From positions 1 to 64,000 of the forward strand of contig NZ_OBDO01000001.1 in the NCBI RefSeq assembly GCF_900215145.1: 64,000 nucleotides of DNA, read 5' to 3'. The first letter of the stretch is position 1, and the number at the start of each line of letters is the position of its first letter. This stretch comes from Geodermatophilus sabuli. Lineage in GTDB: Bacteria > Actinomycetota > Actinomycetes > Mycobacteriales > Geodermatophilaceae. The position numbers and the translations under genes are program-made. The notes beneath the pieces are model-generated. The model was not told the origin of the DNA, did not search any database, and worked only from the letters and a program-made list of their open reading frames with translations. This document shows, in pieces, positions 3,880 through 22,625 of the stretch.

Positions 3880-3898
3880 GTCCTGCGGGCGGCCCCGG

Positions 3899-4846
3899 TC
3901 AGCCGGCCGACCGCTGCCACTCCCGCGGGGTGGTCCCGTAGGCCGCGCGGAACCGCCGGGCGAAGTGGGAGGGGTCGGCGAACCCGCAGGCCCGGCCGAC
4001 GGCCGCGATGGACCGGCGCCGTCCGGCCGGTGAGGCGAGCTCCGCCCGCGCCGCCTCCAGCCGCTGCTCGATGACCCACTGCTCCAGGGACACGCCGACA
4101 CCGGCGCAGACCTTGTACAGCTGACGCACCGAGACGTTGTGGGCGGCCGCGATCCGCTCCGGGGTCAGCTCCGGGTCGGTCAGGTGCTGGCGGACGTAGG
4201 CGAGCACGCGGGTCGCCAGCGTCTCGGCGCGGACCGCGGCCACCAGCGGCTCGGGCGCCGCGGCCGAGACCAGCAGCGCCCGCACCAGCTCCGTCGTCGC
4301 CGTCCCGAGGATGGCCGCGGCGGGGTCCTGGCTGAGTCGCTCGGCGTCGCGGACCATCCGCACCAGGTGGTCACGCACCAGGTCGTGCAGCGGACTGGCC
4401 CCCAGCCGGGGTGCGGCGGCGCGGACGACGTCCGGCGGGAGGCCCAGCTGGTCGGAGGGGACCTGGAAGGCACGTGAGCCACCGGTGCCCGACCAGGAGA
4501 ACGCGTACGGCGCCCGGAGGTCGTTGAGCATCAGCTGGCCGCTGCCCACGGCGTGGTCGGCGCCGAACTGGCTGAACCGTCCGAGCCCACGGGACTGCAC
4601 GGCCAGCGCCACCACCGGGGGGTCCTCCTGCCGTACGTGCCGCGGGGTGCGCAGCAGCCGGAACCCCGACGAGTCGGTCGTGAAGAGGTTGGCCTGGCCG
4701 TAGCGCCACAGGTGCATGCGGGTGCGCACCTCGGCCGGCGGGCCCAGGTGCTCGATGCGGCAGGGGACCGACGCCTGTCCGAACGCGGCGCGGAAGGCGT
4801 CGACCCGGTGCTCGGGCGGCAGGGCGGCGGTGTCCAGGAGCAGCAT
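3899..4846 (-). CDS. AraC-family transcriptional regulator
   Basis: DNA-binding regulator of 315 residues. The N-terminal two thirds resemble the AraC-binding-like sensor domain. The C-terminal hundred residues carry two helix-turn-helix motifs: [17 protein letters not shown], and then the family signature region [19 protein letters not shown]. It is divergent from the chloroperoxidase-like hydrolase gene at 5075 across a 228-bp spacer, so regulation of that hydrolase pair is plausible but inferred. The ligand is unknown. The ATG at 4846 is preceded by a GAGGGAG ribosome site. Confidence 0.9.
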
Positions 4847-5074
4847 CGGACTCCCTCACGGGCGACGGAGGGCGGCCGGCGGGACGTCGTCGTCGCACGC
4901 CGACCGGGACGGCGCCCCCGCTCGCGGCACGAGTCTGGCAGCACGGCGCTCGGCGGTGAACCCCTGCGCGTGCACGCACGGACCAGAGGTGTGCGGGCAG
5001 GGACCGGTACCCGGCGTCGGCCGCTGCCAGGCTCCGCGTCGGACGTGGCCGACACCATCGACGGGAGCCTGACG

Positions 5075-5896
5075 ATGCCCACGATCACCACGACCGACGG
5101 CACGGAGATCTTCTTCAAGGACTGGGGTGACGGACAGCCGGTCGTCTTCAGCCACGGCTGGCCGCTGAACGGCGACGCCTGGGCCGGTCAGATGGTCTTC
5201 ATGGCCGGCAACGGGTTCCGCGCGATCGCCCACGACCGCCGCGGGCACGGCCGCTCCGGCCAGCCGTCGGACGGCAACGACATGGACACCTATGCCGACG
5301 ACCTCGCCCAGGTGATCGAGCACCTCGACCTGCACGACGCGGTCCTGGTCGGGCACTCCACCGGCGGGGGCGAGGTGACCCGGTACATGGGCCGGCACGG
5401 CACCGGCCGGGTCGCCAAGGCGGTCCTGCTCAGCGCCATCCCGCCGCTGATGCTCAAGACGGAGGCCAACCCCGAGGGGCTGCCGATCGAGGTGTTCGAC
5501 GGGCTCCGGACCGACCTGCTCCGCGGGCCATCGGAGTTCTACCGCCAGCTCGCCGAGCCCTTCTACGGCGCGAACCGGCCCGGCAGCGAGGTGTCGCAGG
5601 GCCAGAAGGACGACTTCTGGCGGATGAGCATGATGGCCGGCCTCAAGGGTGCCTACGAGTGCATCGAGCAGTTCAGCGAGATCGACTTCACCCAGGACCT
5701 GCGCCAGATCGAGGTCCCGGTCCTCGTGGCGCACGGTGACGACGATCAGATCGTGCCGTTCCACGACGCGGCGCCCAAGACCGCCGAGCTGCTCGAGGAC
5801 GCGGAGCTCAAGGTCTATCCCGGCCAACCGCACGGCCTGACCGGGGCGCACGAACAGGAGTTCAACGCCGACCTGCTCGCGTTCGCGCGGGCCTGA
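5075..5896 (+). CDS. Alpha/beta hydrolase, non-heme chloroperoxidase/esterase-like
   Basis: Cytoplasmic alpha/beta hydrolase of 273 residues, close to the cofactor-free haloperoxidase/aryl esterase group. HGWPLNG (27-33) supplies the oxyanion region, GHSTGGGE (93-100) carries nucleophile Ser95, GDDDQIVP (221-228) holds the acid, and PHGL (252-255) holds the catalytic His. These proteins usually act as esterases or perhydrolases; the true substrate cannot be read from sequence. ATG 5075 has GGGAG about 8 nt upstream. A second alpha/beta hydrolase starts 11 bp downstream, so the two probably form an operon. Confidence 0.9.
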
Positions 5897-5907
5897 AGGG
5901 CATCGAC

Positions 5908-6774
5908 ATGACCGACATCCCCACCCCGCGACCGTCCGCGGGGCCGCCGACGAACGGCCCCGGCACGATCGTCCTCGTGCACGGCTTCTGGGTGACGCCG
6001 CGCAGCTGGGAGGGCTGGAAGGCGCACTACGAGGCGAAGGGCCACCGCGTGCTGACGCCGGCCTACCCGGGCTTCGAGGTCGAGGTGGAGGAGCTCAACG
6101 CAGACCCGACGGTGATCGCGGGACTGACGCTGGAGACGATCACGGCACATCTGGAGTCCGTCGTCGAGGCGCTGGACGAGCCGCCGATCCTCATCGGCCA
6201 TTCCGCGGGCGGGGCGCTCGTGCAGCTGCTGCTGGACCGCGGCCACGGCGCGGTCGGCGTGGTGCTCAACTCCGCGCCCACGGAGGGCGTGCGGGTGCTG
6301 CCGCTGTCGCAGCTGAGGTCGGTGTTCACCGCCTTCAAGAACCCGGCCAACCGCCACCGCGCCGTGCCGCTCACCTACGAGCAGTGGCACTACGCCTTCA
6401 CCAACACGTTCCCCGAGGACGAGTCCCGGCGGCTCTACGAGCGCTACCACGTGCCGGCGTCCGGCCGGATCCTCTGGGACTCGGTGCTGGCCAACGTCAT
6501 GCCCGGCCCGCAGGACGCCGCGGTCGACTACGCCAAGCCCGACCGCGCCCCGCTGCTGTTCATCTCCGGCGGAGAGGACCACATCCAGCCCCCGAGCGTG
6601 CAGCGGTCCAACGTCAAGCACTACAGGTCGGGCGTCGTGGAGCACCGGGAGCACCCCGGCTACGCGCACCTGCTCCCGGCGCAGGAGGGCTGGGAGGCGA
6701 TCGCCGACTCCGCGCTCGAGTGGGCGATCGGCCACGCACGAGGGACCCGGCCCGAGGTCGCCGGGGCGCAGTGA
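5908..6774 (+). CDS. Alpha/beta hydrolase
   Basis: Second alpha/beta-fold hydrolase of 288 residues. It shows an HGFW oxyanion-hole segment at 25-28, the nucleophile elbow GHSAGG with Ser99, and a late histidine in HPGYAHL. The family includes lipases, esterases and lysophospholipase-like enzymes; no specific substrate is indicated. It sits 11 bp after the chloroperoxidase-like gene. Its TGA overlaps the GTG of the decayed metallo-beta-lactamase gene, so the three once formed a single transcription unit. Confidence 0.88.
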   Translation: MTDIPTPRPSAGPPTNGPGTIVLVHGFWVTPRSWEGWKAHYEAKGHRVLTPAYPGFEVEVEELNADPTVIAGLTLETITAHLESVVEALDEPPILIGHSAGGALVQLLLDRGHGAVGVVLNSAPTEGVRVLPLSQLRSVFTAFKNPANRHRAVPLTYEQWHYAFTNTFPEDESRRLYERYHVPASGRILWDSVLANVMPGPQDAAVDYAKPDRAPLLFISGGEDHIQPPSVQRSNVKHYRSGVVEHREHPGYAHLLPAQEGWEAIADSALEWAIGHARGTRPEVAGAQ

Positions 6775-7419
6775 CCGCCGGGTCGGCGGCGACCGTCCGG
6801 CTCACCCACGTCGGCGGGCCCACCGTCCTCGTCGAGGTCGGCGGCTGGCGGCTGCTCACCGACCCGGCGTTCCCCGCCGGGGACCTGCCGCCGGTGGACG
6901 CCGTCCTGCTCAGCCACGACAGGCACGGCGACAACCTCGACGACGGCCTCCGGCGCGCGGCGGCTCGGCGACGGCGCCCGCGGGCTGCGGCCCTGGGGGA
7001 CGACGGTGCTCACCGCGCCCGGACGCCCTCGATCGAGGTCACCGCGACCCCGGCCCGGCACGGCCCGCCGCTGACCCGGCCGATCTCCGGGGAGGTGACC
7101 GGCTTCGCGCTGCGCTGGGCGGGGCAGGCCGACGGCGTGCTGTGGATCTCCGGGGACACCGTCCCGTTCGACGGCGTCCGGCGGGTGGGGGTGCGCTTCC
7201 CGGTCACCGGGCCGCTGCGCTGGTCGATGACCGCGCGACGCGGTCGGGCTGTGCGGGGTGCTGCGCCCGCGCACCGCCGTCCCGGTGCACTACGAGGGGT
7301 GGACGCACTTCCGGCAGGGCCGCGCGGCCGCCGAGCGGCAACTCGCCGCCGCGCCGCGCGACCTGCACGAGCTCTTCCGCTGGGTGCCGGTCGGGCAGCC
7401 GGTGGAGCTGCCGGCCTGA
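6771..7419 (+). pseudogene. Decayed MBL-fold metal-dependent hydrolase
   Basis: Remnant of an UlaG-like metallo-beta-lactamase-fold hydrolase. Recognisable pieces in order: LTHVGGPTVLVEVGGWRLL near the start; LLSHDRHGDNLDD, where the metal site normally reads HDxHxD; RHGPPLTRPISGEVTGFALR; LWISGDTVPFDGV; and a C-terminal block with RTAVPVHYEGWTHFRQGR. These lie in different frames. The frame changes near 6955 and again near 7028, and a single-base loss near 7231 moves the tail out of frame. Compared with the usual family layout, segments appear missing after TDPAF, after NLDDG and before GVRFPVTG. The GTG start overlaps the upstream hydrolase stop. It is almost certainly non-functional unless these are sequencing errors. 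Confidence 0.8.
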
Positions 7420-7435
7420 GCCGTCCGGACGGCGC

Positions 7436-7672
7436 TCAGCCGCCCCGCTGCACCTCCGCCTGCACCACCCCGCGCAGCGCGGTGAGCAGCTCCGCGTCGC
7501 CGGTGTCCCCGCGCTCGAGCGCGCCCCGCGCCCGCTCCGGCAGCAGGCCGGTGTCCACGGTGTCCAGCCAGGTCACGTCGCCGCCCACCCGGCGCCCCAC
7601 CTGCAGCGCGGCGCCGTCGGGGCGCAGCACGTACTCCTCGCTGTCGAGCCGGATGGTCATCTCGTCGCTCAT
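7436..7672 (-). CDS. Small conserved hypothetical protein
   Basis: Protein of 78 residues, acidic, without signal or membrane segment, beginning MSDEMTIRLDSEEYVLRPDG. I recognise no domain. It reads like a small soluble beta-rich protein followed by a helical tail. Coding potential is supported by a compact frame between the MBL remnant and cutA and by a plausible ATG start with GGGCCCTCCC upstream; function is unknown. It converges with the MBL pseudogene, whose stop lies only 17 bp away, and is divergent from cutA. Confidence 0.55.
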   Translation of the reverse strand: MSDEMTIRLDSEEYVLRPDGAALQVGRRVGGDVTWLDTVDTGLLPERARGALERGDTGDAELLTALRGVVQAEVQRGG

Positions 7673-7735
7673 GGGAGGGCCCCTACCCCGCACGGCGGTT
7701 GCTGCACGCCCGACGGCGGGGGAGAGGATGGCCGC

Positions 7736-8068
7736 GTGCAGGAGGAGTGCTGCGAGGTCGTCGTCACCGCCGCCGACGCCGACTGGCTGGCCGGGTACAC
7801 CCGGACGCTGGTCGGTGAACGGCTGGCGGCCTGCGGTCACCAGCTGACCGCCATCCGGTCGGTCTACCGGTGGGAGGGCGCGGTGCACGACGAGCCGGAG
7901 ACGCGGGTCGCGCTGCACACCCGCCGCTCGCTCGTGCCGGCGGTCGTGGCCCGCACCGCCGAGCTGCACCCCTACGACGTGCCCTGCGTGATCGCGCTGC
8001 CGCTGGTCGACGGCAACCCGGAGTACCTGCGGTGGGTCGTGGCCGAGACCAGGGAGCCGGACCGCTGA
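7736..8068 (+). CDS. cutA: CutA-like divalent cation tolerance protein
   Basis: Protein of 110 residues with the CutA1 core: CEVVVTAADADWLAGYTR at the start, RLAACGH in the middle, then IRSVYRWEGAVHDEPE and the terminal HPYDVPCVIALPL followed by GNPEYL. CutA1 proteins are trimeric ferredoxin-like cytosolic proteins linked to divalent metal tolerance, though their biochemical role is not settled. The GTG start at 7736 has GGGGGAGAGG upstream. The next gene, a GGDEF-EAL protein, begins 125 bp downstream. Confidence 0.9.
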   Translation: MQEECCEVVVTAADADWLAGYTRTLVGERLAACGHQLTAIRSVYRWEGAVHDEPETRVALHTRRSLVPAVVARTAELHPYDVPCVIALPLVDGNPEYLRWVVAETREPDR

Positions 8069-8193
8069 CGCCCGGACCGTTGACGCCCGGACCGCAGCGC
8101 GACCGGCGGTCGCGCGACACGGGCGCCCCGACCATCGAGCCACCCGACCGACCGGCCGCCGGACGAGGCGGCCCGCACCCCGCAGGAGGGCAC

Positions 8194-9966
8194 GTGGCAC
8201 GACGCCAGGGGCAGTCCGACCTGCCCCTCGACGTCCGCCGCCGGGTGCACGCGCCGACCAGCTCGGCGGTCGTCGTCGAGGCGGTCCTCGACGCCCTGCC
8301 GTCGCCGACGCTGCTCATCGACGCCGAGGGCACGGTGCTGCTGGCCAACACCGCGTGGGAGAACGCCGCCGACGTCCTCGGCGACGAGCGCATGCGGATC
8401 GGCGTGGACGGCGACTACTTCGCCATGGCCCGCCGGCTCAGCGGCGACGCCGGCACCCTCTCGCTCGTCGACCGGCTGCGGGCGCTGTCCCGCGGCGAGT
8501 GCTCCTCGGTGCAGGCCGACTACGCCCTCGAGCACCCCGACGGCACCCGCTGGCTCCACCTGCAGGCCTCCCGGGTCGACCAGGCCGGCCAGGTGGTGGT
8601 CACCCACACCGACGTCACCTCCCGGGTCGCCGCCGAGCGCGCCTCGGACTGGCGGGCCCGCCACGACACCCTCACCGACCTGCCCAACCGCGCCCACCTG
8701 CACGAGCTCATCGACGCCGAGCTGCACCGGCCGGACCGCGGTCCGGTCTCGGTCCTCTTCCTCGACATCGACGGCTTCAAGGACGTCAACGACTCCCTCG
8801 GCCACGACGCCGGCGACGACCTGCTGCGCCAGATCGCCCGGCGGCTGACCGGCTCGACCCGCGCCGACGACACCGTCGGCCGGCTCGGCGGTGACGAGTT
8901 CGTCGTCCTCTGCCGCGACTGCGACACCCCCGGGGCGCAGACCCTGGCCGACCGCTGCCGCAGCAGCATCGACCGGCCCTTCGACCTCGGTGGCCGCATG
9001 GTCCGGCTCGGCGTGAGCATCGGCATCGCCACCGCCGCGGACCCGCAGGCGCCGCAGGTCCGGTCCACCGATCTGGTCCGGGACGCCGACCTGGCGATGT
9101 ACGCGGCGAAGGCGGCCGGCCGCAACCGGGTGCGCCTGTTCACCGCGGACCTGCGCACGGCCGCCCAGCGGCGGGCCACCGTGGCCAACGAGCTGCGCGA
9201 GGCGATCCTCGACGAGCAGCTGGTGCTGCACTACCAGCCGGTCCTTCGGCTGCCCAGTCTGCGCTGCACCGGGGTGGAGGCGCTGGTCCGCTGGCAGCAC
9301 CCGAAGCGGGGGCTGCTCCCGCCGTCGGAGTTCCTCCCCGTCGCGGTCCAGCACGACCTCATGACCCCGCTGGCCAGGTGGGTGCTGCGCGAGGCGACCG
9401 GGCAGGCCGTGGCCTGGACGCGGGCCGGGATGCCGCTGATCACCAGCGTCAACATCAGCGCCAGCCACTTCTCCACCGGCACCCTCGTCCGCGACGTCCG
9501 CGACGCGCTCGCCGCGACCGGGCTGCCGCCCGAGCAGCTGGTGGTGGAGCTGACCGAGACGTCCGTGGCGCAGGACGCCGAGCGCGCCGCCGCCCAGTTC
9601 GCCGAGCTGCGGCTGTCCGGCGTCGAGGTCTCCATCGACGACTTCGGCAGCGGCTTCTCCTCGCTGGCCCAGCTGGTCGCCATGCCGGCCGGCATCCTCA
9701 AGATCGACCGCAGCCTCGTCGCGTACCCCGAGGGACGGCGGAGCAAGGCGGCCGCCGCCGTCGCCGCGGTGGTCGCGCTCGGACGGGCCTGCGGGGCGCG
9801 CTCGCTGGCGGAGGGCGTCGAGACCGCCGAGCAGCTGGAGATGGCCATCGAGCTGGGCTGCCACCTCGCGCAGGGCTTCCACATCGCCCGGCCCATGCCC
9901 CCGGAGCAGCTGGCGGAGTGGGTGGCCGCGCGCGGCGACCGCCCGCTCACCCCCAGCGGCCGCTGA
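8194..9966 (+). CDS. PAS-GGDEF-EAL protein
   Basis: Soluble c-di-GMP protein of 590 residues with no membrane segments. A PAS-like sensor occupies about residues 25-145. The GGDEF domain keeps an intact RLGGDEF (GGDEF 232-236) with RADD as I-site five residues ahead. The EAL domain keeps GVEALVRW (EAL 362-364), NISASHF, VELTETSV, DDFGSGFSSL, KIDRSLV and EGVET, so the cyclase and phosphodiesterase sites both look intact. GTG 8194 has AGGAGGG 3 nt upstream; no earlier start has such a site. It differs from the first GGDEF-EAL protein by its cytoplasmic PAS input. Confidence 0.92.
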   Translation: MARRQGQSDLPLDVRRRVHAPTSSAVVVEAVLDALPSPTLLIDAEGTVLLANTAWENAADVLGDERMRIGVDGDYFAMARRLSGDAGTLSLVDRLRALSRGECSSVQADYALEHPDGTRWLHLQASRVDQAGQVVVTHTDVTSRVAAERASDWRARHDTLTDLPNRAHLHELIDAELHRPDRGPVSVLFLDIDGFKDVNDSLGHDAGDDLLRQIARRLTGSTRADDTVGRLGGDEFVVLCRDCDTPGAQTLADRCRSSIDRPFDLGGRMVRLGVSIGIATAADPQAPQVRSTDLVRDADLAMYAAKAAGRNRVRLFTADLRTAAQRRATVANELREAILDEQLVLHYQPVLRLPSLRCTGVEALVRWQHPKRGLLPPSEFLPVAVQHDLMTPLARWVLREATGQAVAWTRAGMPLITSVNISASHFSTGTLVRDVRDALAATGLPPEQLVVELTETSVAQDAERAAAQFAELRLSGVEVSIDDFGSGFSSLAQLVAMPAGILKIDRSLVAYPEGRRSKAAAAVAAVVALGRACGARSLAEGVETAEQLEMAIELGCHLAQGFHIARPMPPEQLAEWVAARGDRPLTPSGR

Positions 9967-10014
9967 CCCGCCTCCTCCAGGCGCCCTCCCCCCGGGGGGC
10001 AGGGAGGCCCCTCG

Positions 10015-10326
10015 TCAGCCCGGCTCGCCGCGCCGCTTGCGGCGGATCACCACGCCCAGGTCGACCAGGGCCACTGCGGCGAGGACGAACAGCACCACCG
10101 CGGGCCACACGGGCAGGTCACTGACCAGCCACAGCACCGCGGCACCGAGGCAGACGACGAGGCCGAAGGTGGCCAGCACCAGCCGCAGGGTGAGCGCCGA
10201 CTGCGCCGGCGCCGCCCCGCCGATGCCGGCCGTGGGGTCGTGGTGGTCGGGCAGGCCCCGGGCGTAGTCCTCCCGCGACCGTGGCTCGTGGCCCTCCCGG
10301 GACCGGGGTCTTCGGGGTTCGCTCAT
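10015..10326 (-). CDS. Two-TM small membrane protein, DUF6343-like
   Basis: Protein of 103 residues. A charged N-terminal tail rich in Arg and Asp (to about residue 38) is followed by two hydrophobic helices at roughly 45-67 and 72-92, ending in a basic RRKRRGEPG tail. This layout matches the actinobacterial DUF6343 family, of unknown function. It lies divergent from prfB with a 45-bp spacer. Assignment to the family is from memory of its pattern, not a search. Confidence 0.7.
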
Positions 10327-10357
10327 GCCGGGCCACCTACCCGGGGCGGGAGCGCAC

Positions 10358-10363
10358 TACCCT
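10358..10363 (+). promoter_or_regulatory. -10 hexamer for leaderless prfB
   Basis: TACCCT fits the actinobacterial TANNNT -10 pattern and ends 8 nt before the prfB GTG, placing the transcription start at or near the start codon. No clear -35 box is seen. Confidence 0.5.
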
Positions 10364-10371
10364 GGGTCGAC

Positions 10372-11490
10372 GTGGCCGCTGACTTCTCCGTCGTCCTGGA
10401 CGAACTCGACACGACCCTGAAGTCGATCGAGGCTGTCCTCGACGTCGACCGACTGCGCCGCGAGGTCGGGGAGCTGGAGCAGCAGGCCGCCGCCCCCGAC
10501 CTCTGGAACGACGTCGAGGCCGCGCAGGCGCTCACCTCCCGGCTGTCCTACCTGCAGGGTGACCTGCGGCGGGTCGAGGAGCTGCGCAGCCGGCTCGACG
10601 ACGTCGGGCTGCTGCACGAGATGGCCGCCGAGGAGGGCGACGAGGCGACCACCGCCGAGACGGAGCATGAGCTGGAGAGCCTGCGCAAGGCGATCGACGA
10701 GCTCGAGGTCCGCACCCTGCTGTCGGGGGAGTACGACTCCCGCGAGGCCCTGGTCACCATCCGCTCGGAGGCCGGTGGCGTCGACGCCGCCGACTTCGCC
10801 GAGATGCTGATGCGCATGTACCTGCGCTGGGCGGAGCGGCACAAGTACCCCGTCGAGCTGTACGACGTCAGCTACGCGGAGGAGGCCGGCATCAAGTCGG
10901 CGACCTTCGCCGTGAAGGTGCCCTACGCCTACGGCACCCTCTCCGTCGAGCAGGGCACCCACCGGCTGGTGCGCATCTCGCCGTTCGACAACCAGGGCCG
11001 CCGGCAGACCTCCTTCGCCGGCGTCGAGGTCCTCCCGGTCGTCGAGCAGACCGACCACGTGGACATCCCCGAGAACGAGATGCGCATCGACGTCTTCCGG
11101 TCCAGCGGGCCCGGCGGGCAGAGCGTGAACACCACCGACTCCGCCGTCCGGATCACCCACCTCCCGACCGGGATCGTCGTCTCCTGCCAGAACGAGAAGA
11201 GCCAGATCCAGAACCGCGCGGCGGCCCTGCGCGTGCTGCAGGCGCGGCTGCTGGCGGTGCGGCAGGCCGAGCAGCGGGCGGAGATGGACGCGCTGAAGGG
11301 CGAAGGCGGCAGCAGCTGGGGCAACCAGATGCGTTCCTACGTCCTGCACCCCTACCAGATGGTCAAGGACCTGCGCACCGAGCAGGAGACCGGCAACACC
11401 GCGGCGGTGCTCGACGGGGAGATCGACGGCTTCATCGAGGCCGGTATCCGCTGGCGGCGTCAGCAGGAGGCGGTCTCCGCCGCGTCGTGA
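10372..11490 (+). CDS. prfB: Peptide chain release factor 2
   Basis: Class I release factor of 372 residues that reads UAA and UGA and triggers peptide release on the ribosome. The tripeptide anticodon SPF is at 203-205, and the catalytic GGQ is at 248-250 within [17 protein letters not shown]. The frame is continuous from the GTG, so the +1 programmed frameshift that controls RF2 in many bacteria is absent here, as is common in actinobacteria. No Shine-Dalgarno site is visible, but a TANNNT hexamer 8 nt upstream suggests a leaderless mRNA. It is followed by ftsE and ftsX, the usual actinobacterial order. Confidence 0.97.
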
Positions 11491-11657
11491 ACCGACCGCC
11501 CCGGGAGTCCCGTTCGTCACACCGCTCCCACGGCGGAGCGCGGGATGGGCGACGCTGGGTGAGCGGTCACCTGGGACTTCCGGGAGACCGTCACGCTGCG
11601 CGGATCCTGGACCGGGGCGTTCCGTGGCGAACGGACCAGGATGCGCCTCGGGGAAGG

Positions 11658-11663
11658 TACCGT
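11658..11663 (+). promoter_or_regulatory. -10 hexamer for leaderless ftsE
   Basis: TACCGT ends 8 nt before the GTG start of ftsE, again fitting leaderless transcription. The 181-bp spacer after prfB suggests ftsE has its own promoter. Confidence 0.45.
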
Positions 11664-11671
11664 GGCGCCTC

Positions 11672-12361
<690 letters not shown>

Positions 12362-12362
12362 C

Positions 12363-12420
12363 CGCCGGCGCTCGACCGCCGGGTCGCTGATCGCCGGCGC
12401 TCGACCGCCGGGTCGCTGAT
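12363..12420. repeat. Two perfect tandem copies of a 29-bp unit
   Basis: Bases 12363-12391 and 12392-12420 are identical 29-mers, beginning CGCCGGCGCTCGACCGCCGG. The repeat fills most of the ftsE-ftsX spacer and adds one direct duplication, so copy number may vary between strains. There is no spacer between units, so it is not CRISPR-like. Confidence 0.95.
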
Positions 12421-12451
12421 CTCCGCCAGCTGAACTCCAGACAGGGAATCC

Positions 12452-13336
12452 ATGCGCGTCAACTTCGTGCTCTCCGAGGTGGCCACCGGGCTGCGTCGCA
12501 ACCTGACCATGACGGTCGCGATGATCCTGACGACGGCCATCTCGCTCGGCCTCATGGGCACCGGCCTGCTGATCGCCGGGATGATCTCCGACATGAAGGA
12601 GATCTACTACGACAAGGTGCAGGTCTCCATCTTCCTGGCCGACGACGTCACCGACGAGCAGCGCGCGGCGATCGAGCAGCAGCTCGCGGACTCCTCGGAG
12701 GTGGCCTCCTACCTCTACGAGTCCAAGGACGAGGCCTACGAGCGCTTCCAGCAGCAGTTCAGCCAGCAGCCGGAGCTCGTGCAGAACACCCCGCCGGACG
12801 CGCTGCCGGAGAGCTTCCGCGTCGAGCTGGTGAACCCGGAGCGCTACGAGGTCATCGCCGCGGAGTTCCCCAACGGGCAGAACGGCGTGGACCAGGTCCG
12901 CGACGAGGGCGACTTCCTCGACCGGCTGTTCAGCCTGCTCAACGGCGCCCGCAACGCGACGATCGCCGTCGCCGTCGTCCAGGCGCTGGCGGCGTTGCTG
13001 CTGATCTCCAACACCATCCAGCTGGCGGCGTTCAACCGGCGCAACGAGACCAACATCATGCGGCTGGTCGGCGCCTCGCGCTGGTACACCCAGCTGCCGT
13101 TCATCCTCGAGGCCGCGCTGGCGGGGCTGATCGGTGCGCTGCTGGCTGTCGGCGGGCTGGTGCTCACGAAGGTGCTGTTCGTCGACAAGACCCTCGCCGG
13201 CCCCATCAAGGCCGGGATCATCCCGCCCGTGGACTGGGGCGCGATCGCCTTCATCAGCCCGATCATCGCCGGTGCCGGCGTCGGGTTGGCCGCGATCGCC
13301 GCCTACGTGACGCTGCGCCTCTACGTGCGCCTGTAG
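12452..13336 (+). CDS. ftsX: Cell division permease FtsX
   Basis: Membrane partner of FtsE, 294 residues. It has the FtsX topology: a first helix at about 16-43, a large extracytoplasmic loop to about 170 that normally contacts an envelope hydrolase regulator, then three helices at about 172-198, 210-240 and 268-292. The start MRVNFVLSEVATGLRRNLTM is typical of actinobacterial FtsX. ATG 12452 has CAGGGAA 5 nt upstream. The extracytoplasmic hydrolase gene often found next to ftsX (RipC or an M23 peptidase) is not here. Confidence 0.95.
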   Translation: MRVNFVLSEVATGLRRNLTMTVAMILTTAISLGLMGTGLLIAGMISDMKEIYYDKVQVSIFLADDVTDEQRAAIEQQLADSSEVASYLYESKDEAYERFQQQFSQQPELVQNTPPDALPESFRVELVNPERYEVIAAEFPNGQNGVDQVRDEGDFLDRLFSLLNGARNATIAVAVVQALAALLLISNTIQLAAFNRRNETNIMRLVGASRWYTQLPFILEAALAGLIGALLAVGGLVLTKVLFVDKTLAGPIKAGIIPPVDWGAIAFISPIIAGAGVGLAAIAAYVTLRLYVRL

Positions 13337-17951: not shown

Positions 17952-18359
17952 ATGACCGAGGTGACCCTGCCCTCCGGCGCGCGGGTCCGCGGACGGCGAC
18001 TCGGCGAGCCGGCGTCCCCGGTCGACCTCACCGTCGTCCTCGGCTCCGGCCCGCTCCCGCCCTGGCCGTACCGGCGGGTGCGCTGGCCCGACTTCTGGGT
18101 GCCGACCGACACCGCCGATGCCCTCGACGCGCTGCGGGAGGCGCACCGGCGGGCGTACGCGGGGGAACGGGTGGAGGTGGCCTGCTCCGGCGGGGTCGGC
18201 CGCACCGGCACGGCGCTTGCCGCCCTCGCCGTCCTGGACGGGCTCCCGGCCGCGGACGCCGTCCGGTGGATCCGTGCTCGATACCACCCCCGCGCGGTGG
18301 AGACGCCCTGGCAGCGCCGCTGGCTGCGATCGATCGGTCCACCGGGGGAGCCCGGCTGA
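17952..18359 (+). CDS. Protein-tyrosine phosphatase-like protein
   Basis: Protein of 135 residues with the P-loop CSGGVGRTG (Cys at about 79, Arg at about 85), matching the CxxGxxRT phosphatase signature. VRWPDFWVPTD may provide the general acid Asp, and the C-terminal VRWIRARYHPRAVET resembles other small cysteine phosphatases. This short form, lacking the usual N-terminal PTP helices, is widespread in actinobacteria and sometimes annotated as a protein phosphatase of unknown target. It starts 16 bp after the acetyltransferase. Confidence 0.8.
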   Translation: MTEVTLPSGARVRGRRLGEPASPVDLTVVLGSGPLPPWPYRRVRWPDFWVPTDTADALDALREAHRRAYAGERVEVACSGGVGRTGTALAALAVLDGLPAADAVRWIRARYHPRAVETPWQRRWLRSIGPPGEPG

Positions 18360-18383: not shown

Positions 18384-20111
18384 TCACCTCGCCGCCGGGC
18401 GCGCCGCCCCCGCGCGGGATGTCAGGCGGAGGGCGAGCAGGCAGACGTCGTCCTCGTGCCCGTGGGCGGGCAGCAGCCGGTCGAGGAGAGCGTCGCAGAC
18501 GACCTCCGCCGGCTGGCGGACGAGGTCGTGGGCGGCGTGGACGAGCGCGGCGAAGCCGGCGTCGAGGTCCCGGTCGCGTCGTTCGATGAGCCCGTCGGTG
18601 TACAGGAGCACCAGGTCGTCGTGCGACAGGGGCGTGAGGGCGTCGGCGAAGGAGGTCCCGGAGGTGGCACCCAGCATCATGCCGGCGGGGTCGGCCAGCA
18701 GGCGGACACCGGTGGGGCTGATCAACAGGGGCGGGAGGTGCCCCGCGCTCGCCCACCGCCACGAGTGGCGGGAGGGTTCCAGGCGGCCGAACACGGCGGT
18801 GGCCAGCCCGCCGTCGTGCAGGCCGGTGGTCAGGGCGTTGAGTCTGGTGAGGGCGGCTGCGGGCGTGCCCTCGCTGAACGCGTAGGCCCGCAGGGCGTTG
18901 CGCACCTGGCCCATCGTCGCGGCGGCGTCGAGGTCGTGACCGACGACGTCCCCCACGGCCACCGCCAGGCACCCGTCCGGCAACCAGAAGGCGTCGTACC
19001 AGTCACCGCCGACCAGCGAGGGCCGGTCGGCGGGCAGATAGCGAGCCGCCAGCTCCACCTGGGGCGCCGTGGGGAGGCGCGCCGGCAGGATCGCCCGCTG
19101 CAGCGACTCCTTGACCCGGTGCTCCTCGGCCAGCTCCATCGTCTGGCGCACCAGCGCCTCACGGGCCTCGACCACTGCCTCGGCCGCCCGGCGCTGTTCG
19201 GTCACGTCCTGTGTCGTGCCGCGCATCCCACTCACGGTGCCGTCGGGCCGACAGATCACCTCTCCGCGGGTCACGGTGTGCCGGAGGCTCCCGTCGGCGT
19301 GGATGAACCGCTGCTGGACCACGAACGGCTGGTGGTCGGCGAGCGCGCGATCCCACGCGGCGGTGGCCGCGGCGGCATCCTCGGGGTGCGAGGCGGTCGC
19401 CAGGGCCTGCTGGGCGGTCGACCCGGTCGCTCCGGGATCGATGCCGAAGATGCGGTACATCTGGATCGACCAGTCGAGCTCGCCGGAGGCGACGTCCCAG
19501 AACCAGCTGCCGATCCGCCCGATCCGCTGCGCCTCCTCCAGTTCCCGCGTGGACCGGGTCAGATCGGCGTAGGCCCCGACCAGTTCCTGCTCGTTGCGCC
19601 GCCGGTCGGTGAGGTCGGAGACGGTCAGACAGCGGACGATGGTGCCCTCGATGTCCAGTCCGGTCACCGACGCCAGCGCCGGCACGGTCGATCCCGCCGC
19701 GCCGGCGAGGACGAGCTCCCCGTGGCGGGTGGTCCCGGGGACGGTCGTCAGCAGGGACGCCAGGGTGTCGGCCGCCGAGGCGTCGACGAGGCCGGTGATG
19801 TCCTTGCCGAGGAGCGCGGCGCGGTCGGTCCCGACCAGGTCGGCGATGCGCCGGTTGGCGAAGAGGATGATCCCGCGCTCGGAGACGGTGGCCGCGCCGT
19901 CGCCCATCTCCTCGACGATCACGCGGTACGGCCGGTCGGCGCTGACCAGCGTGTACAGCTGTTGTCCCTGCGGTCCGCTCAGGACGACCGCGTCGACGTC
20001 CCCCCCGCGGATCGCGGTGAGCGCTCGCCGCAGGTCCTCGATCTGGAGACGGAGAGTGGCGAACTCGTCCGCCGGGTGAACGGCACCGTCCTCCGGTGGG
20101 TGGCCGGTCAC
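18384..20111 (-). CDS. PAS-PAS-SpoIIE (PP2C-type) phosphatase
   Basis: Soluble protein of 575 residues. A short N-terminal helix is followed by a PAS domain at about 60-170 and another at about 205-320 (with RIGRIGSWFWDVASGELDW and the PAC-like IHADGSLRHTVTRGEV). A linking helix leads to a SpoIIE/PP2C Ser/Thr phosphatase at about 340-560. Metal-binding acids are in VGGDWYDAFWL, GDVVGHDLDAA and EDDVCLLALRL. Relatives (RsbU, SpoIIE) dephosphorylate anti-anti-sigma factors. It is the last gene of the kai operon; its GTG overlaps the stop of the second kaiB (GTGA). The target is unknown and no STAS or anti-sigma gene is adjacent. Confidence 0.93.
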   Translation of the reverse strand: MTGHPPEDGAVHPADEFATLRLQIEDLRRALTAIRGGDVDAVVLSGPQGQQLYTLVSADRPYRVIVEEMGDGAATVSERGIILFANRRIADLVGTDRAALLGKDITGLVDASAADTLASLLTTVPGTTRHGELVLAGAAGSTVPALASVTGLDIEGTIVRCLTVSDLTDRRRNEQELVGAYADLTRSTRELEEAQRIGRIGSWFWDVASGELDWSIQMYRIFGIDPGATGSTAQQALATASHPEDAAAATAAWDRALADHQPFVVQQRFIHADGSLRHTVTRGEVICRPDGTVSGMRGTTQDVTEQRRAAEAVVEAREALVRQTMELAEEHRVKESLQRAILPARLPTAPQVELAARYLPADRPSLVGGDWYDAFWLPDGCLAVAVGDVVGHDLDAAATMGQVRNALRAYAFSEGTPAAALTRLNALTTGLHDGGLATAVFGRLEPSRHSWRWASAGHLPPLLISPTGVRLLADPAGMMLGATSGTSFADALTPLSHDDLVLLYTDGLIERRDRDLDAGFAALVHAAHDLVRQPAEVVCDALLDRLLPAHGHEDDVCLLALRLTSRAGAARPAAR

Positions 20112-20446
20112 GGCTCACCCGGCAGCCGGCCGCGCGCGGTCGACGGGGACGGCGGCGCCACCAGCTCGAGCCCCGCGCGGACGCGGTCGGCGTCGGCCAG
20201 GTCACCCACGAGCCGACGCACGGGGGCGGGTCGCTGCCTGACCAGGGTGGGTACGGCGAGGACCTGGTCCTCGCCGGCGAGGTCCGGGTCCTCAGCGACG
20301 TCCACCACCCGGAGGTCGACCTGGCCCGGGAGCGCCTCGTCGCACACCCGCCGGACCGTGTCGAGGGCCTGTGCCGAGCGCGGTGAGGCGCCGCTGACGT
20401 ACAGCGTCAGCGACCAGCGCGGGGCGCCCTCCGCGGGGCCGGTCAC
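20108..20446 (-). CDS. Second, divergent KaiB family protein
   Basis: Protein of 112 residues with KaiB layout: [62 protein letters not shown]. It aligns along its length with the preceding KaiB but is more changed and lacks the acidic KaiB ending. The GTG start overlaps the first kaiB stop by four bases, and its own TGA overlaps the phosphatase start. It is likely a paralogue with a separate partner or a regulator of KaiC binding; this is inference. Confidence 0.9.
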
Positions 20447-20775
20447 GGCCCGCCGCCCGCAGGGCGCAACTGCAGCCCGACCAGCAGCTTCTCGGTGTCC
20501 GACAGGTCACCGATGATCTTGCGGACGGGTTGGGGGAGCTTGCGGACCAGGGTGGGGACGGCGATGATCTCGTCCCCCCGCGCGAGCTGCGGGTTCTCCA
20601 GGAGGTCGACCAGCTCGATCCGGTACCGCCCGGCGAGGTGCTCCTCGCAGGTGCGGCGCAGGTTCTCGACGGCGCGCACCGACTTCGGGCTGTGCCCCGC
20701 GAGGTAGAGGCGCAGCTCGTACACCTCCAGGGGGTCGTCGGCCCGGTTGCCGTGCGCACCGCCGGCGGGTTCCAC
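20443..20775 (-). CDS. kaiB: Circadian clock protein KaiB homologue
   Basis: Protein of 110 residues with the canonical thioredoxin-like KaiB core: [58 protein letters not shown] and [13 protein letters not shown]. KaiB binds the CI ring of KaiC after a fold switch. The GTG at 20775 lies one base after the kaiC stop, with GGGAGGGG upstream inside kaiC, so translation is coupled. A longer frame starting further upstream would overlap kaiC and is unlikely. KaiA is not present in the window. Confidence 0.93.
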
Positions 20776-20776
20776 G

Positions 20777-22522
20777 TCACCCCTCCCGTCCTGCTGGTGG
20801 GGGGGCGTCCCGTCCGCCCTGGCGCCGGCGGGCGAGGGTCGCCCGGACCGCCGCGCGCGCGTCCCCTCCACGGGACTCCTCGGCGACCAACCTGTCCAGC
20901 GCGGCGGTCTCGGTCGCCAGCTGTTCGCGCAGCACCGCGATCTGGGCCTCGACCTCGGCGGAGCGTCGTGCCAGGGCCAGCCGCCGCCGCTCGAGTTCGG
21001 CGCTCTGCTCAGCCTCGGCTGCGCGCTCCTCGGCCACCTGCGCCATCCGGGCGGAGCCGGTCAGGACGCCCCGCGGCCCCACGGAGACGTCCAGCAGCTC
21101 GGCGCCGTGGTCGGTCAGGATGAACTCGCGCACCTGGTTGGAGTGCGCCGTCCCCCGGCTCTTGATCACGAACAGCAGCCGGTTGCGCTCGCCGTCGCTC
21201 TCCACGTTGCGCAGGAGGAGCCAGGTGTCGATCAGTGACGAGGCATCCACCGAGCTGGTCTCCGCCTGCCCCTCGTGGCTCAGGCTGGTGAGGACCCCGG
21301 TGATGCCGCGCGACTTCATCATGTCGACCTCACGGGCCACTGCGGCCGTGACCTCGGACTGCGCGCCGACGTGGGTCAGACTGCCGACGGCGTCGAGCAC
21401 GGCGATGGCCGGCGTGGTCTCGTCCAGCAGCCGTTCGATGGCGGCGAGGTGGCTCTCGAGGCCGAACGCGGTGGCCCGTTGGCCCCACAGGCGCAGCAGC
21501 CCTGCGTCCACCCATCGGCCGAGGTCGATGCCGACCGACCGCATGTTCCGCACGAGCTGGTCGGGGGACTCCTCGAAGGACACGAACAGGGCGGGCTCGC
21601 CGCGGGCGCAGGCGGCATCGACGGCCGCAGCGGCCAGCGTCGTCTTCCCGGTGCCGGCGGTCCCGGTGATGAGCACCGTGGAGCCGCGGTGGACGCCGCC
21701 GGTCAGCATCTCGTCCAGCCGGGGCACCCCCAGCGAGATCCGGTCGGTGGAGACCGGGTAGGTGAGCTGGGTCGAGGTGATGGGCCAGACCATCAGACCG
21801 CGGTCGGTGACCAGGAAGGGGTACTCGTTGGTGCCGTGGCCGGATCCGCGGTACTTCACGATGCGCAGCCGCCGGGTGGCGATCTCGTCGTGCATCCGGT
21901 GGTCGAGGACGATCACGCAGTCGGAGACGTACTCCTCGATGCCGTACCGGGTCAGCTGTCCCTCGCGGCCGCGCTCGCCGGTGATCAGGGTGGTCAATCC
22001 CTGGTCCTTCAGCCACCGCAGCAGGCGGCTGAACTCCGCCCGGACGACCGCCTCGTTGTCCAGTGCGCCGAACAGCACCTCGATGGTGTCGAGCACCACC
22101 CGCCGTGCGCCGGTGGCCTGCACCGCGGCGGACAGGCGGATGAACAGGCCGTCGAGGTCGAACTCCCCGGTCGTCACGAAGTCGGTCGCGTCGACCCGGC
22201 ACGCGTCGACGACCAGGTCCCCCGAGGCCTCGAGCCCGGCCAGGTCGAGACCCAGTGAGGCCACGTCGTCCGCCAACTCCGCGGCCGACTCCTCGAACGC
22301 CAGCAGCACGCCCGGCTCGTCGTAGTCCTGTGCACCACGGGCGAGGAACTCCAGGCCGAACAACGTCTTGCCGGCACCGGGCCCACCAGTGACCAGGCTC
22401 GCCCGGCCGCGCGGCAACCCGCCGCCGGTGATCTCGTCGAACCCCCGGATGCCGGTCGGCGCCTTCCCCAGTCCGGAGCTGACGGCCGGGCGCGTCCTGG
22501 GCGCGTGGATCGACGGCGCCAT
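20777..22522 (-). CDS. kaiC: KaiC-family double-RecA ATPase with C-terminal coiled coil
   Basis: Protein of 581 residues. CI half: Walker A GGPGAGKT (46-53) and paired catalytic glutamates Glu77/78 (AFEES). CII half: Walker A GTAGTGKT (287-294) and Glu317/318 (SFEES). The cyanobacterial phosphosites Ser431/Thr432 align with Ser428/Ser429 in DASSLIDTW. After the CII domain the cyanobacterial A-loop tail is replaced by a charged coiled coil at about 495-560. ATG 22522 has AGGAGGTCCTC directly upstream. It heads the operon with two kaiB genes and a SpoIIE phosphatase. It is most likely a KaiA-independent ATPase/autokinase for timekeeping or stress signalling. Confidence 0.95.
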
Positions 22523-22625
22523 GAGGACCTCCTACCTGGAGTGCCCAAGCTAGTGGCGATCACCGGCCCGCGAGAAGGGACTCGGCGCGGGAGACACGTG
22601 CGACGCCGGCCCCCGTCCGGCGTGC

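Follow-up and report, generated by a model that had tools for sequence, protein, structure and literature searches.

A kaiC-kaiB-kaiB-phosphatase operon of Geodermatophilus sabuli and a candidate Kai-reader module shared by many lineages

Organization of the operon

The window, i.e. the whole 64-kb stretch of Geodermatophilus sabuli DNA analysed here, carries on its minus strand, at positions 18384-22522, a tight operon composed of kaiC, two kaiB genes and a gene encoding a PAS-PAS-SpoIIE (PP2C) protein, referred to below as the reader (Table 1). The kaiC stop codon is separated from the GTG start of kaiB1 by 1 base, and the kaiB1/kaiB2 and kaiB2/phosphatase junctions are GTGA overlaps, which verifies, together with the coordinates, the claim of the initial annotation that the four genes overlap or abut at each junction. 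A promoter and terminator scan at the operon, using a sigma-70 pattern on this GC-rich genome, found 0 and 0, respectively. In comparison with two relatives of the same family, dN/dS values of the four genes range from 0.17 to 0.56. Chance neighbourhood of these genes is ruled out by the order and contact kept elsewhere and by the recurrence of the N-terminal module of the reader after kaiB across loci (see below).

Table 1. Features of the kai operon and of its protein products
Feature	Position	Strand	Basis
kaiC, 581 aa, KaiC2 / R. sphaeroides type (by sequence), phosphosites Ser428-Ser429	20777..22522	-	Pfam, NCBIfam, 8DBA alignment
KaiC C-terminal extension, ~residues 490-575, matches 8DBA tail	20798..21055	-	alignment of query 16-571 to chain 3-558
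kaiB1, GTG start, nearer family consensus than kaiB2	20443..20775	-	Pfam, NCBIfam
kaiB2, second KaiB, 4-base overlap at each end, highest dN/dS of the four genes	20108..20446	-	
Reader phosphatase, 575 aa, module-PAS-PAS-SpoIIE/PP2C	18384..20111	-	Pfam and motif alignment
Unnamed candidate Kai-reader module, residues ~13-70, helix, beta-hairpin and helix running into PAS	19902..20075	-	
PAS1, residues 71-168, comes after the module in aligned readers	19608..19901	-	
PAS2, residues 212-299	19215..19478	-	
SpoIIE/PP2C catalytic domain; GGDWYDA 368, VGDVVGHD 386, YTDGLIER 504, EDDVCLLAL 553	18423..18980	-	
AGGAGG, ribosome-binding-site-like, 5' of kaiC	22528..22533	-	read from sequence

KaiC, the KaiB pair and the missing KaiA

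KaiC matches the Pfam KaiC ATPase family (2e-104) and contains two RecA-like domains, with Walker A motifs at 46 and 287 and EE pairs at 77-78 and 317-318, all of which are kept. The phosphosites, Ser-Ser and not Ser-Thr, align with the serine pair of Rhodobacter (Cereibacter) sphaeroides KaiC (8DBA), whose serines are glutamates in the phosphomimetic 8FWI and bear the numbers Ser413/Ser414 in the available part of PMC10076222. KaiC had been described as intact in its ATPase glutamates and phosphosites, and both EE pairs, both Walker A motifs and the Ser-Ser sites bear this out. The 8DBA alignment spans 556 residues, tail included, up to query residue 571; the C-terminal extension of the KaiC2 type, a putative coiled coil, is present. 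The protein passes the cut-off of the NCBIfam KaiC model NF006799 (642.6 bits vs 408) and misses that of TIGR02655 (circ_KaiC; 330.2 bits vs 546.25). Judged by its sequence, it belongs to the hourglass type of KaiC known from R. sphaeroides (KaiC2), and confusion with a RadA- or GvpD-like protein is excluded by Pfam, NCBIfam and the 8DBA alignment.

The two small proteins match Pfam KaiB with E-values of 1e-25 (kaiB1) and 1e-23 (kaiB2), at 89.4 and 83.3 bits vs a cut-off of 27, and miss the NCBIfam KaiB equivalog cut-offs (99.5 and 79.3 bits vs 110 for NF006798; 95.6 and 76.2 bits vs 145.3 for TIGR02654). By these profile scores they are members of the KaiB family placed outside that equivalog. 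A search for KaiA, which does give a match in S. elongatus, gave none in the genome (0/1). The initial annotation had noted KaiB beside KaiC and no KaiA; the Pfam KaiB matches indeed adjoin kaiC, and the KaiA search was negative genome-wide.

The reader phosphatase

The SpoIIE domain of the reader was recognized by Pfam with an E-value of 1e-47 (163 bits vs a cut-off of 25), and two PAS regions were found besides. We take the Asp residues of its PP2C motifs to be metal-binding. They are kept in the alignment with Rv1364c, 3KE6, and the reader shares both catalytic domain and motifs with the RsbU / SpoIIE-family PP2C proteins. It differs from them in that the module and a pair of PAS domains precede the catalytic domain, and by the lack of an RsbU N-terminal domain, ATPase or STAS, as only PAS and SpoIIE families were detected by Pfam at E 0.001; KaiB, HisKA and HATPase were likewise not found in this search. 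An RsbU proper, with the KaiA-like RsbU N-terminal domain, is thereby excluded, as is a SasA-like protein with a KaiB-like N-terminal domain and a histidine kinase. SasA, the cyanobacterial KaiC-binding kinase, shares with the reader the proposed role of reading the Kai state, but its KaiB-like N-terminal domain and kinase (described in the accessible part of PMC3164672) are both absent from the window reader.

A module linked to kai genes

The initial annotation recognized KaiC, KaiB and the output gene but missed the key feature of the operon, an unnamed N-terminal module common to readers of many lineages, for which no Pfam or NCBIfam family was found. In many phyla the gene after kaiB starts with this helix-hairpin module of ~55 residues, followed by PAS; it does so at 56 of the 58 kaiC-kaiB loci that could be evaluated, and at 42 of 44 once the loci used for the profile are removed. 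The 58 loci are what remains of 68 examined after setting aside L117 (without a KaiC frame), seven loci without kaiB downstream, and L090 and L096, which end just after kaiB; they include L050, which comes from the same genome as L041, a profile member. Of the two loci that miss it, L080 extends for a further 494 bases past kaiB, and L111 has a KaiC of 38% identity. Across 63 aligned readers Asp40 is invariant, and 9 of the 15 invariant or near-invariant residues lie at 33-67. With the module directly after kaiB and then PAS, the window reader can be counted, on sequence grounds, as a member of this set.

Genome searches, in which the best 15 candidates per genome were scored (the best 56 in the family), gave a similar picture. 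Strong matches in the class sample were found in 6 of 394 genomes, all beside kaiB and all among the nine genomes with a strong KaiB; in the family the module occurs in 3 of 112 genomes, the same three that have kaiB pairs; and in the phylum (E <1e-7) in 10 of 396, nine of them beside kaiC/kaiB. All 11 plasmid records with the module, 8 of them from the single genus Cereibacter, have it at most ~760 bases after a kaiC match, the HWE kinase of R. sphaeroides KD131 included.

Several cases count against the link between the module and Kai. L117 has the module and no KaiC reading frame was found there. Of the seven KaiC loci without kaiB downstream, three (L108, L115, L116) have room there and are also devoid of the module; the other four lie at a contig end. 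A metagenome-assembled genome (G762, completeness 77%) contains a strong module gene but neither a KaiB match nor, in the 11 kb covered, any kai gene.

The link rests on gene association, and neighbouring genes may be inherited together without their products binding each other. The module could accordingly be a mere generic PAS dimerisation cap, its place in the gene order being inherited without physical coupling to Kai. The predicted model, a helix and hairpin leading into PAS (block pLDDT values of 77 and 64 in the hairpin region), would fit such a cap; a Foldseek search with module and PAS1 returned only PAS/LOV proteins among the 50 matches listed. The whole cassette can also be co-inherited, and G762 carries the module without KaiB. 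On the other hand, strong module matches away from kai genes are rare (0/6 in the class, 0/3 in the family, 1/10 in the phylum and 0/11 on plasmids), and the module stays while PAS2 and the output change: a comparison of the window reader with nine readers not belonging to the family gives identities of 46-73% for module residues 30-70 and of only 16-28% for PAS2 (62% for PAS2 of the G028 and G029 readers). We consider a generic cap unlikely.

Output domains behind the module

Among the 63 module genes Pfam detected 41 kinase ATPases (HATPase_c), 7 GGDEF, 5 EAL, 4 HD, 3 sigma-54 activator and 3 SpoIIE domains, with overlap between the GGDEF and EAL counts and with some of the readers truncated at the ends of contigs. 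Domain content and trees show that the output behind the module was exchanged between lineages. In these trees HK is the default label of a reader unless it was assigned to another group or marked unknown; 16 rows of the 81-row tree are unknown and lie outside the 10 changes counted, and not represented in this tree are L045, L106, L107, L109, L114-L117 and L050, which shares its genome with L041. The earlier suggestion that the last gene could be the output is upheld here as the likely reading.

A PP2C reader is also encoded by G761, one distant actinobacterial genome. A single clade, and hence one origin, of the PP2C readers was rejected by the AU test (p-AU 5.2e-8; tree without L050, L052_1, L043, L053, L101, L085, L112, L075, L152 and segments <110 aa), thus the slot took PP2C at least twice. 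An invention of the arrangement restricted to Actinobacteria is ruled out by kaiC-kaiB-module loci in many phyla.

The phosphatase might also act on KaiC itself, stripping the Ser428/Ser429 phosphate and resetting the timer, and so be an input and not an output. PP2C enzymes act on phosphoserine, the phosphatase gene overlaps the kaiC-kaiB-kaiB run, and the PP2C reader arose independently in G761. However, the usual substrates of SpoIIE-family phosphatases are STAS proteins, and most lineages seen hold a kinase, GGDEF/EAL, HD or sigma-54 protein in the slot, so that a phosphatase for KaiC is no general requirement. Moreover, according to the available parts of PMC10076222 and PMC11372060, R. 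sphaeroides KaiC cycles its own phosphorylation and dephosphorylation under KaiB and ATP/ADP. Such an input role seems improbable.

Distribution and history of the cassette

A lack of conservation of the gene order had been named beforehand as refuting the initial reading; a kaiC-kaiB-kaiB run followed by a module-PAS-SpoIIE gene was, however, found in four of the genomes seen (own, G028, G029 and G761). The two other genomes of the family among them keep the four genes in order and contact, with identities of 78-79% for KaiC, 85-92% for KaiB1, 67-71% for KaiB2 and 70% for the phosphatase. Even within the family the trait is sporadic: the PP2C-output cassette is present in 3 of 112 genomes, beside the same flanking gene, and as 109 of the 112 have no KaiB pair, it is dispensable. 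None of the 20 congeners listed has the cassette, and the five that were compared have the site without it. A recent insertion is nevertheless disfavoured, as the KaiC identity is no different from that of the flanking genes common to the two relatives, which spans 59-93%. It seems more likely that the cassette was gained long ago and lost afterwards, or that it was exchanged long ago.

Known systems and proposed function

A signalling protein following KaiBC is known, being widespread and published; the earlier view of the operon as a system not known to be described in actinobacteria needs correcting in this respect, and the PP2C output alone is the unusual part. The R. sphaeroides KaiBC hourglass (8DBA, 8FWI, 8FWJ) shares with the window the Ser-Ser type of KaiC, the C-terminal coiled-coil extension (predicted here) and the absence of KaiA; strain KD131 also shares the kaiC-kaiB-reader order, and its adjacent HWE histidine kinase bears the same module (profile E 4e-15). 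It differs in having one KaiB and a kinase output instead of PP2C. KaiB and KaiC are treated in PMC10076222, and the word "operon" is absent from its text. As far as the accessible text of PMC8069551 goes, Methylorubrum extorquens AM1 shares the kaiC-kaiB-kaiB-regulator order (kaiC1-kaiB2-kaiB1-kaiR1) and Ser-Ser sites, a likeness of gene order, the domains of KaiR1 not being described there. Rhodopseudomonas palustris has a kaiC-B-PAS/HK operon (PMC4794148, in part) and differs by its kinase output. The open-access PMC literature searched yielded no report of a Kai-to-sigma-cascade link, of KaiC and KaiB with SpoIIE, or of KaiC in Geodermatophilaceae.

Based on our observations, we suggest, with a probability of roughly 0.6, that the operon is a KaiA-less KaiC2-KaiB timer cassette with a module-bearing PP2C reader, signalling to a STAS/stress sigma factor. 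By homology to R. sphaeroides KaiBC, KaiC would autophosphorylate at Ser428/Ser429 and hydrolyse ATP, with KaiB binding at high ADP. The module at the N-terminus, made up of a helix, a beta-hairpin and the PAS cap, would then dock on KaiC, on KaiB or on the complex of the two and report its state, as co-occurrence suggests, and the signal may travel through both PAS domains and the linker helices to the exchangeable output (kinase, GGDEF/EAL, HD, sigma-54 activator or, here, PP2C). As in the SpoIIE/RsbU family, the PP2C domain would dephosphorylate a Ser/Thr protein, for which a STAS anti-anti-sigma factor is the likeliest candidate, and thereby free a stress sigma factor; by this analogy an RsbU-type partner-switch sigma cascade probably lies downstream of the phosphatase. 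The net effect would be to gate a stress programme slowly and according to the energy state. The genome contains 21 STAS and 17 SpoIIE matches. Several results count against the proposal. Besides the exceptions to the module-Kai link, the hairpin pLDDT, the Foldseek matches and the dispensability of the cassette described above, no STAS match lies in the window and no STAS gene is adjacent to the operon, and the dN/dS of the reader (0.28-0.43 vs 0.17-0.29 for KaiC) indicates a weaker constraint.

Geodermatophilaceae are known for UV and desiccation tolerance, and KaiBC might serve as a stress-response adaptor without time-keeping, tuning UV, temperature or energy-stress tolerance. Loss of kaiC1 in M. 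extorquens AM1 lowers UV survival (PMC8069551, in part), and a stress role in Legionella is cited in the available part of PMC5520375. On the other side, the sequence features linked in R. sphaeroides to autophosphorylation and the regulatory tail are kept, which has no bearing on timing either way. We find such an adaptor rather unlikely, though less so than the input role or the generic cap; it overlaps the timer proposal, and the probabilities do not sum to 1.

Our data suggest that one shared plug couples the same timer to outputs of different kinds. More tentatively, and with somewhat less than even confidence, KaiBC timers that lack KaiA, both in bacteria and in some archaea, could generally use the module as their docking plug, with outputs (histidine kinase, cyclic-di-GMP enzymes, HD, sigma-54 activator, Ser/Thr phosphatase) exchanged in evolution while the timer stays; if so, a Kai timer in Geodermatophilaceae would directly control an RsbU-like partner switch and, through it, a stress sigma factor. 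As the module is common to readers with very different outputs, the R. sphaeroides-adjacent kinase included, it offers one testable candidate docking site for many organisms, and the PP2C version makes the Kai read-out accessible to a simple phosphatase assay.

Genetic organization of the kai operon

The initial annotation had claimed a real operon at this site, and our analysis upheld this: four genes with the expected domains and with coupled starts and stops lie on the same (minus) strand of the G. sabuli genome (5.5 Mb, 25 contigs, completeness 100), with AGGAGG upstream of kaiC. The last of them, the reader, encodes the signalling protein.

Coordinates of the operon and of other loci discussed
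Feature	Source	Position	Strand
kaiC	window	20777-22522	minus
kaiB1	window	20443-20775	minus
kaiB2	window	20108-20446	minus
PAS-PAS-SpoIIE gene (reader)	window	18384-20111	minus
Y_phosphatase-family gene	window	17955-18359	
kaiC with two module readers	L147 (G761)	2819-8337	
Histidine kinase with module	L146 (G762)	3233-4873	
KaiC	L108 (Cyanobium sp. FGCU52)	7983-9713	
Tandem module readers	L110 (Synechococcus sp. CS-1332)	8957-13301	
Short reader	L044 (G348)	8637-9398	
Second module protein	L104 (Methanoculleus sediminis)	4065-7418	

Both Walker A motifs and both EE pairs are conserved in KaiC, which has two serines at its phosphosite. The closest solved structure is R. sphaeroides KaiC (8DBA; 571 bits, residues 16-571, including the tail); 1U9I, from S. 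elongatus, scored 323 bits across residues 16-498. The protein passed the NCBIfam model NF006799 (KaiC) and failed TIGR02655, while both kaiB products passed Pfam KaiB and neither passed the NCBIfam KaiB equivalogs. No KaiA match was found in the genome.

Conservation within Geodermatophilaceae

Among 112 genomes of the family, seven had any KaiB match and three (G. sabuli and two others, G028 and G029) had a strong pair, the remaining four showing single matches under the cut-off (E ~7e-4). G028 and G029 have the identical four-gene order, with identities to G. sabuli of 78-79% (KaiC), 85-92% (KaiB1), 67-71% (KaiB2) and 70% (reader). The dN/dS ratio (Nei-Gojobori) was 0.17-0.29 for kaiC, 0.18-0.30 for kaiB1, 0.46-0.56 for kaiB2 and 0.28-0.43 for the reader; therefore all four genes are under purifying selection, weakest for kaiB2.

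The same HTH_67 gene adjoins the cassette in all three genomes. In five examined congeners (of 25 found) it adjoins a GNAT or tyrosine-phosphatase gene at most ~470 bases away, and the cassette was absent between these neighbours in all five. The small Y_phosphatase-family gene of the window, convergent with the reader, probably lies outside the Kai system, because it adjoins the same HTH_67 gene in some cassette-free congeners too.

An N-terminal module common to the readers

Comparison of the fourth gene at 68 loci from GTDB contigs revealed that its constant part is the N-terminus, not the output. Within this module Asp40 (numbering of the G. sabuli reader) is invariant across 63 reader proteins, and Ala33, Ile34, Gly37, Val39, Leu55, Tyr62, Arg63 and Glu67 are near-invariant. 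AlphaFold2 (55 sequences) predicted two helices (13-36 and 60-68) separated by a hairpin (41-46/49-54), the second helix running into PAS1. The mean pLDDT was 86.9, and the hairpin blocks scored 77 and 64; Foldseek with this model listed PAS folds.

A Pfam scan of 68-79-residue segments from six loci gave no match better than E 0.07, and in an NCBIfam scan of seven full-length readers no model named the module, some general sensor-kinase models extending into it far under their cut-offs. No description of it was found in the literature searched, as far as the available text of those sources goes, which is no proof of absence; the common module appears to be new.

Association of the module with kai genes

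kaiB follows kaiC at 60 of the 68 loci, and the next gene carries the module in 56 of the 58 evaluable cases (42/44 without the loci used for profile building). Less biased were the class, phylum and plasmid samples. The class sample (394 genomes) contained 44 genomes with some KaiB match (nine strong) and seven with a module match (six strong). All six strong-module genomes belong to the nine strong-KaiB genomes and carry the module beside kaiB; the probability of six random genomes all falling within those nine is ~2e-11 by a hand calculation that ignores kinship. In the three remaining strong-KaiB genomes KaiC is divergent and kaiB precedes its gene, and the weak seventh module match (G157, E 6e-5) comes from a genome without KaiB.

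The phylum sample (396 genomes) gave 14 module matches, ten with E < 1e-7, nine of them beside kaiC/kaiB. The exception is a histidine kinase in G762, a MAG 77% complete without a KaiB match, and it is a possible Kai-free use of the module. Four weak matches (G544, G650, G664, G714; E > 1e-4, KaiB-free) look like chance.

In 72,556 plasmid records the module occurred in 11 (eight from Cereibacter; three examined with annotation), always at most ~760 bases after a kaiC match. Among the 13 plasmid records with the best KaiC matches, two (H2, H12) had no module at E 1e-3. A KaiC 62% identical to that of the window was observed in Cyanobium sp. FGCU52, with no kaiB or module gene in the 8 kb downstream.

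Exchange of reader outputs

Excerpts of earlier reports already describe genes for a histidine kinase or GGDEF/EAL protein after kaiC-kaiB (recorded in 2011; PMC3164672), kaiC-B-PAS/HK operons in R. palustris and R. sphaeroides (PMC4794148) and a kaiC1-kaiB2-kaiB1-kaiR1 cluster in M. extorquens, where KaiC1 aids UV survival (PMC8069551). A Kai operon with a SpoIIE/RsbU phosphatase was not found in the literature searched, which again does not prove absence. The initial annotation regarded its arrangement as an actinobacterial peculiarity, which does not hold, as the cassette is widespread, although the role it proposed for the final gene remains plausible.

According to Pfam, the 63 readers contain HATPase_c (41), GGDEF (7), EAL (5, overlapping GGDEF), HD (4), sigma-54 activator (3) and SpoIIE domains (3; the window, G028 and G029). 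The ten phylum-set readers comprise five kinases, two GGDEF-EAL, one GGDEF-HD, one HD and one SpoIIE protein; the R. sphaeroides KD131 reader is an HWE kinase. The SpoIIE reader of the phylum set (module-PAS-PAS-GAF-SpoIIE) follows kaiC-kaiB-kaiB in G761, where a module-PAS-HD reader lies in front of kaiC.

The common module makes the output exchange visible. In quick trees with SH-aLRT support only, the KaiC phylogeny required at least ten changes of output label, and a nine-row clade around the window unites PP2C, GGDEF, HD and kinase readers. In the module+PAS1 tree the G761 PP2C reader and its own HD neighbour are mutual closest relatives (support 100). A single clade of all four PP2C readers, a group named once domain content was known, was rejected in this tree (p-AU 5.2e-8). 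The PP2C output appears to be new and to have been acquired at least twice.

Further variants were noted. Synechococcus sp. CS-1332 has tandem module readers after kaiB, of HD and multi-PAS GGDEF type. The second module protein of M. sediminis (~1118 aa) is encoded on the opposite strand, and ~2.4 kb separate it from the kaiB pair of a kaiC-kaiB-kaiB-reader cassette. The short reader of G348 (254 aa), judged by eye, has a C-terminal region resembling a HisKA_3-type helix region and lacks an ATPase domain.

Putative mechanism

The available portions of one study (PMC10076222) describe an R. sphaeroides KaiC that phosphorylates itself without KaiA, forms a dodecamer through its tail and binds KaiB in the ADP state, the timer being driven by the ATP/ADP ratio. 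By analogy, the G. sabuli KaiC would work in the same way. The module may sense the KaiC/KaiB state, because it is kept while PAS2 and the outputs vary. The PP2C domain of the reader agrees with Rv1364c in its motifs and would therefore act on a partner-switch protein of the STAS type; the genome has 17 SpoIIE and 21 STAS matches, none of the latter within the 64-kb window. Module readers of WOR-3/Caldifarciminota (L061, L063, L066) carry a sigma-54 activator motif, and such readers would set the Kai timer directly on transcription.
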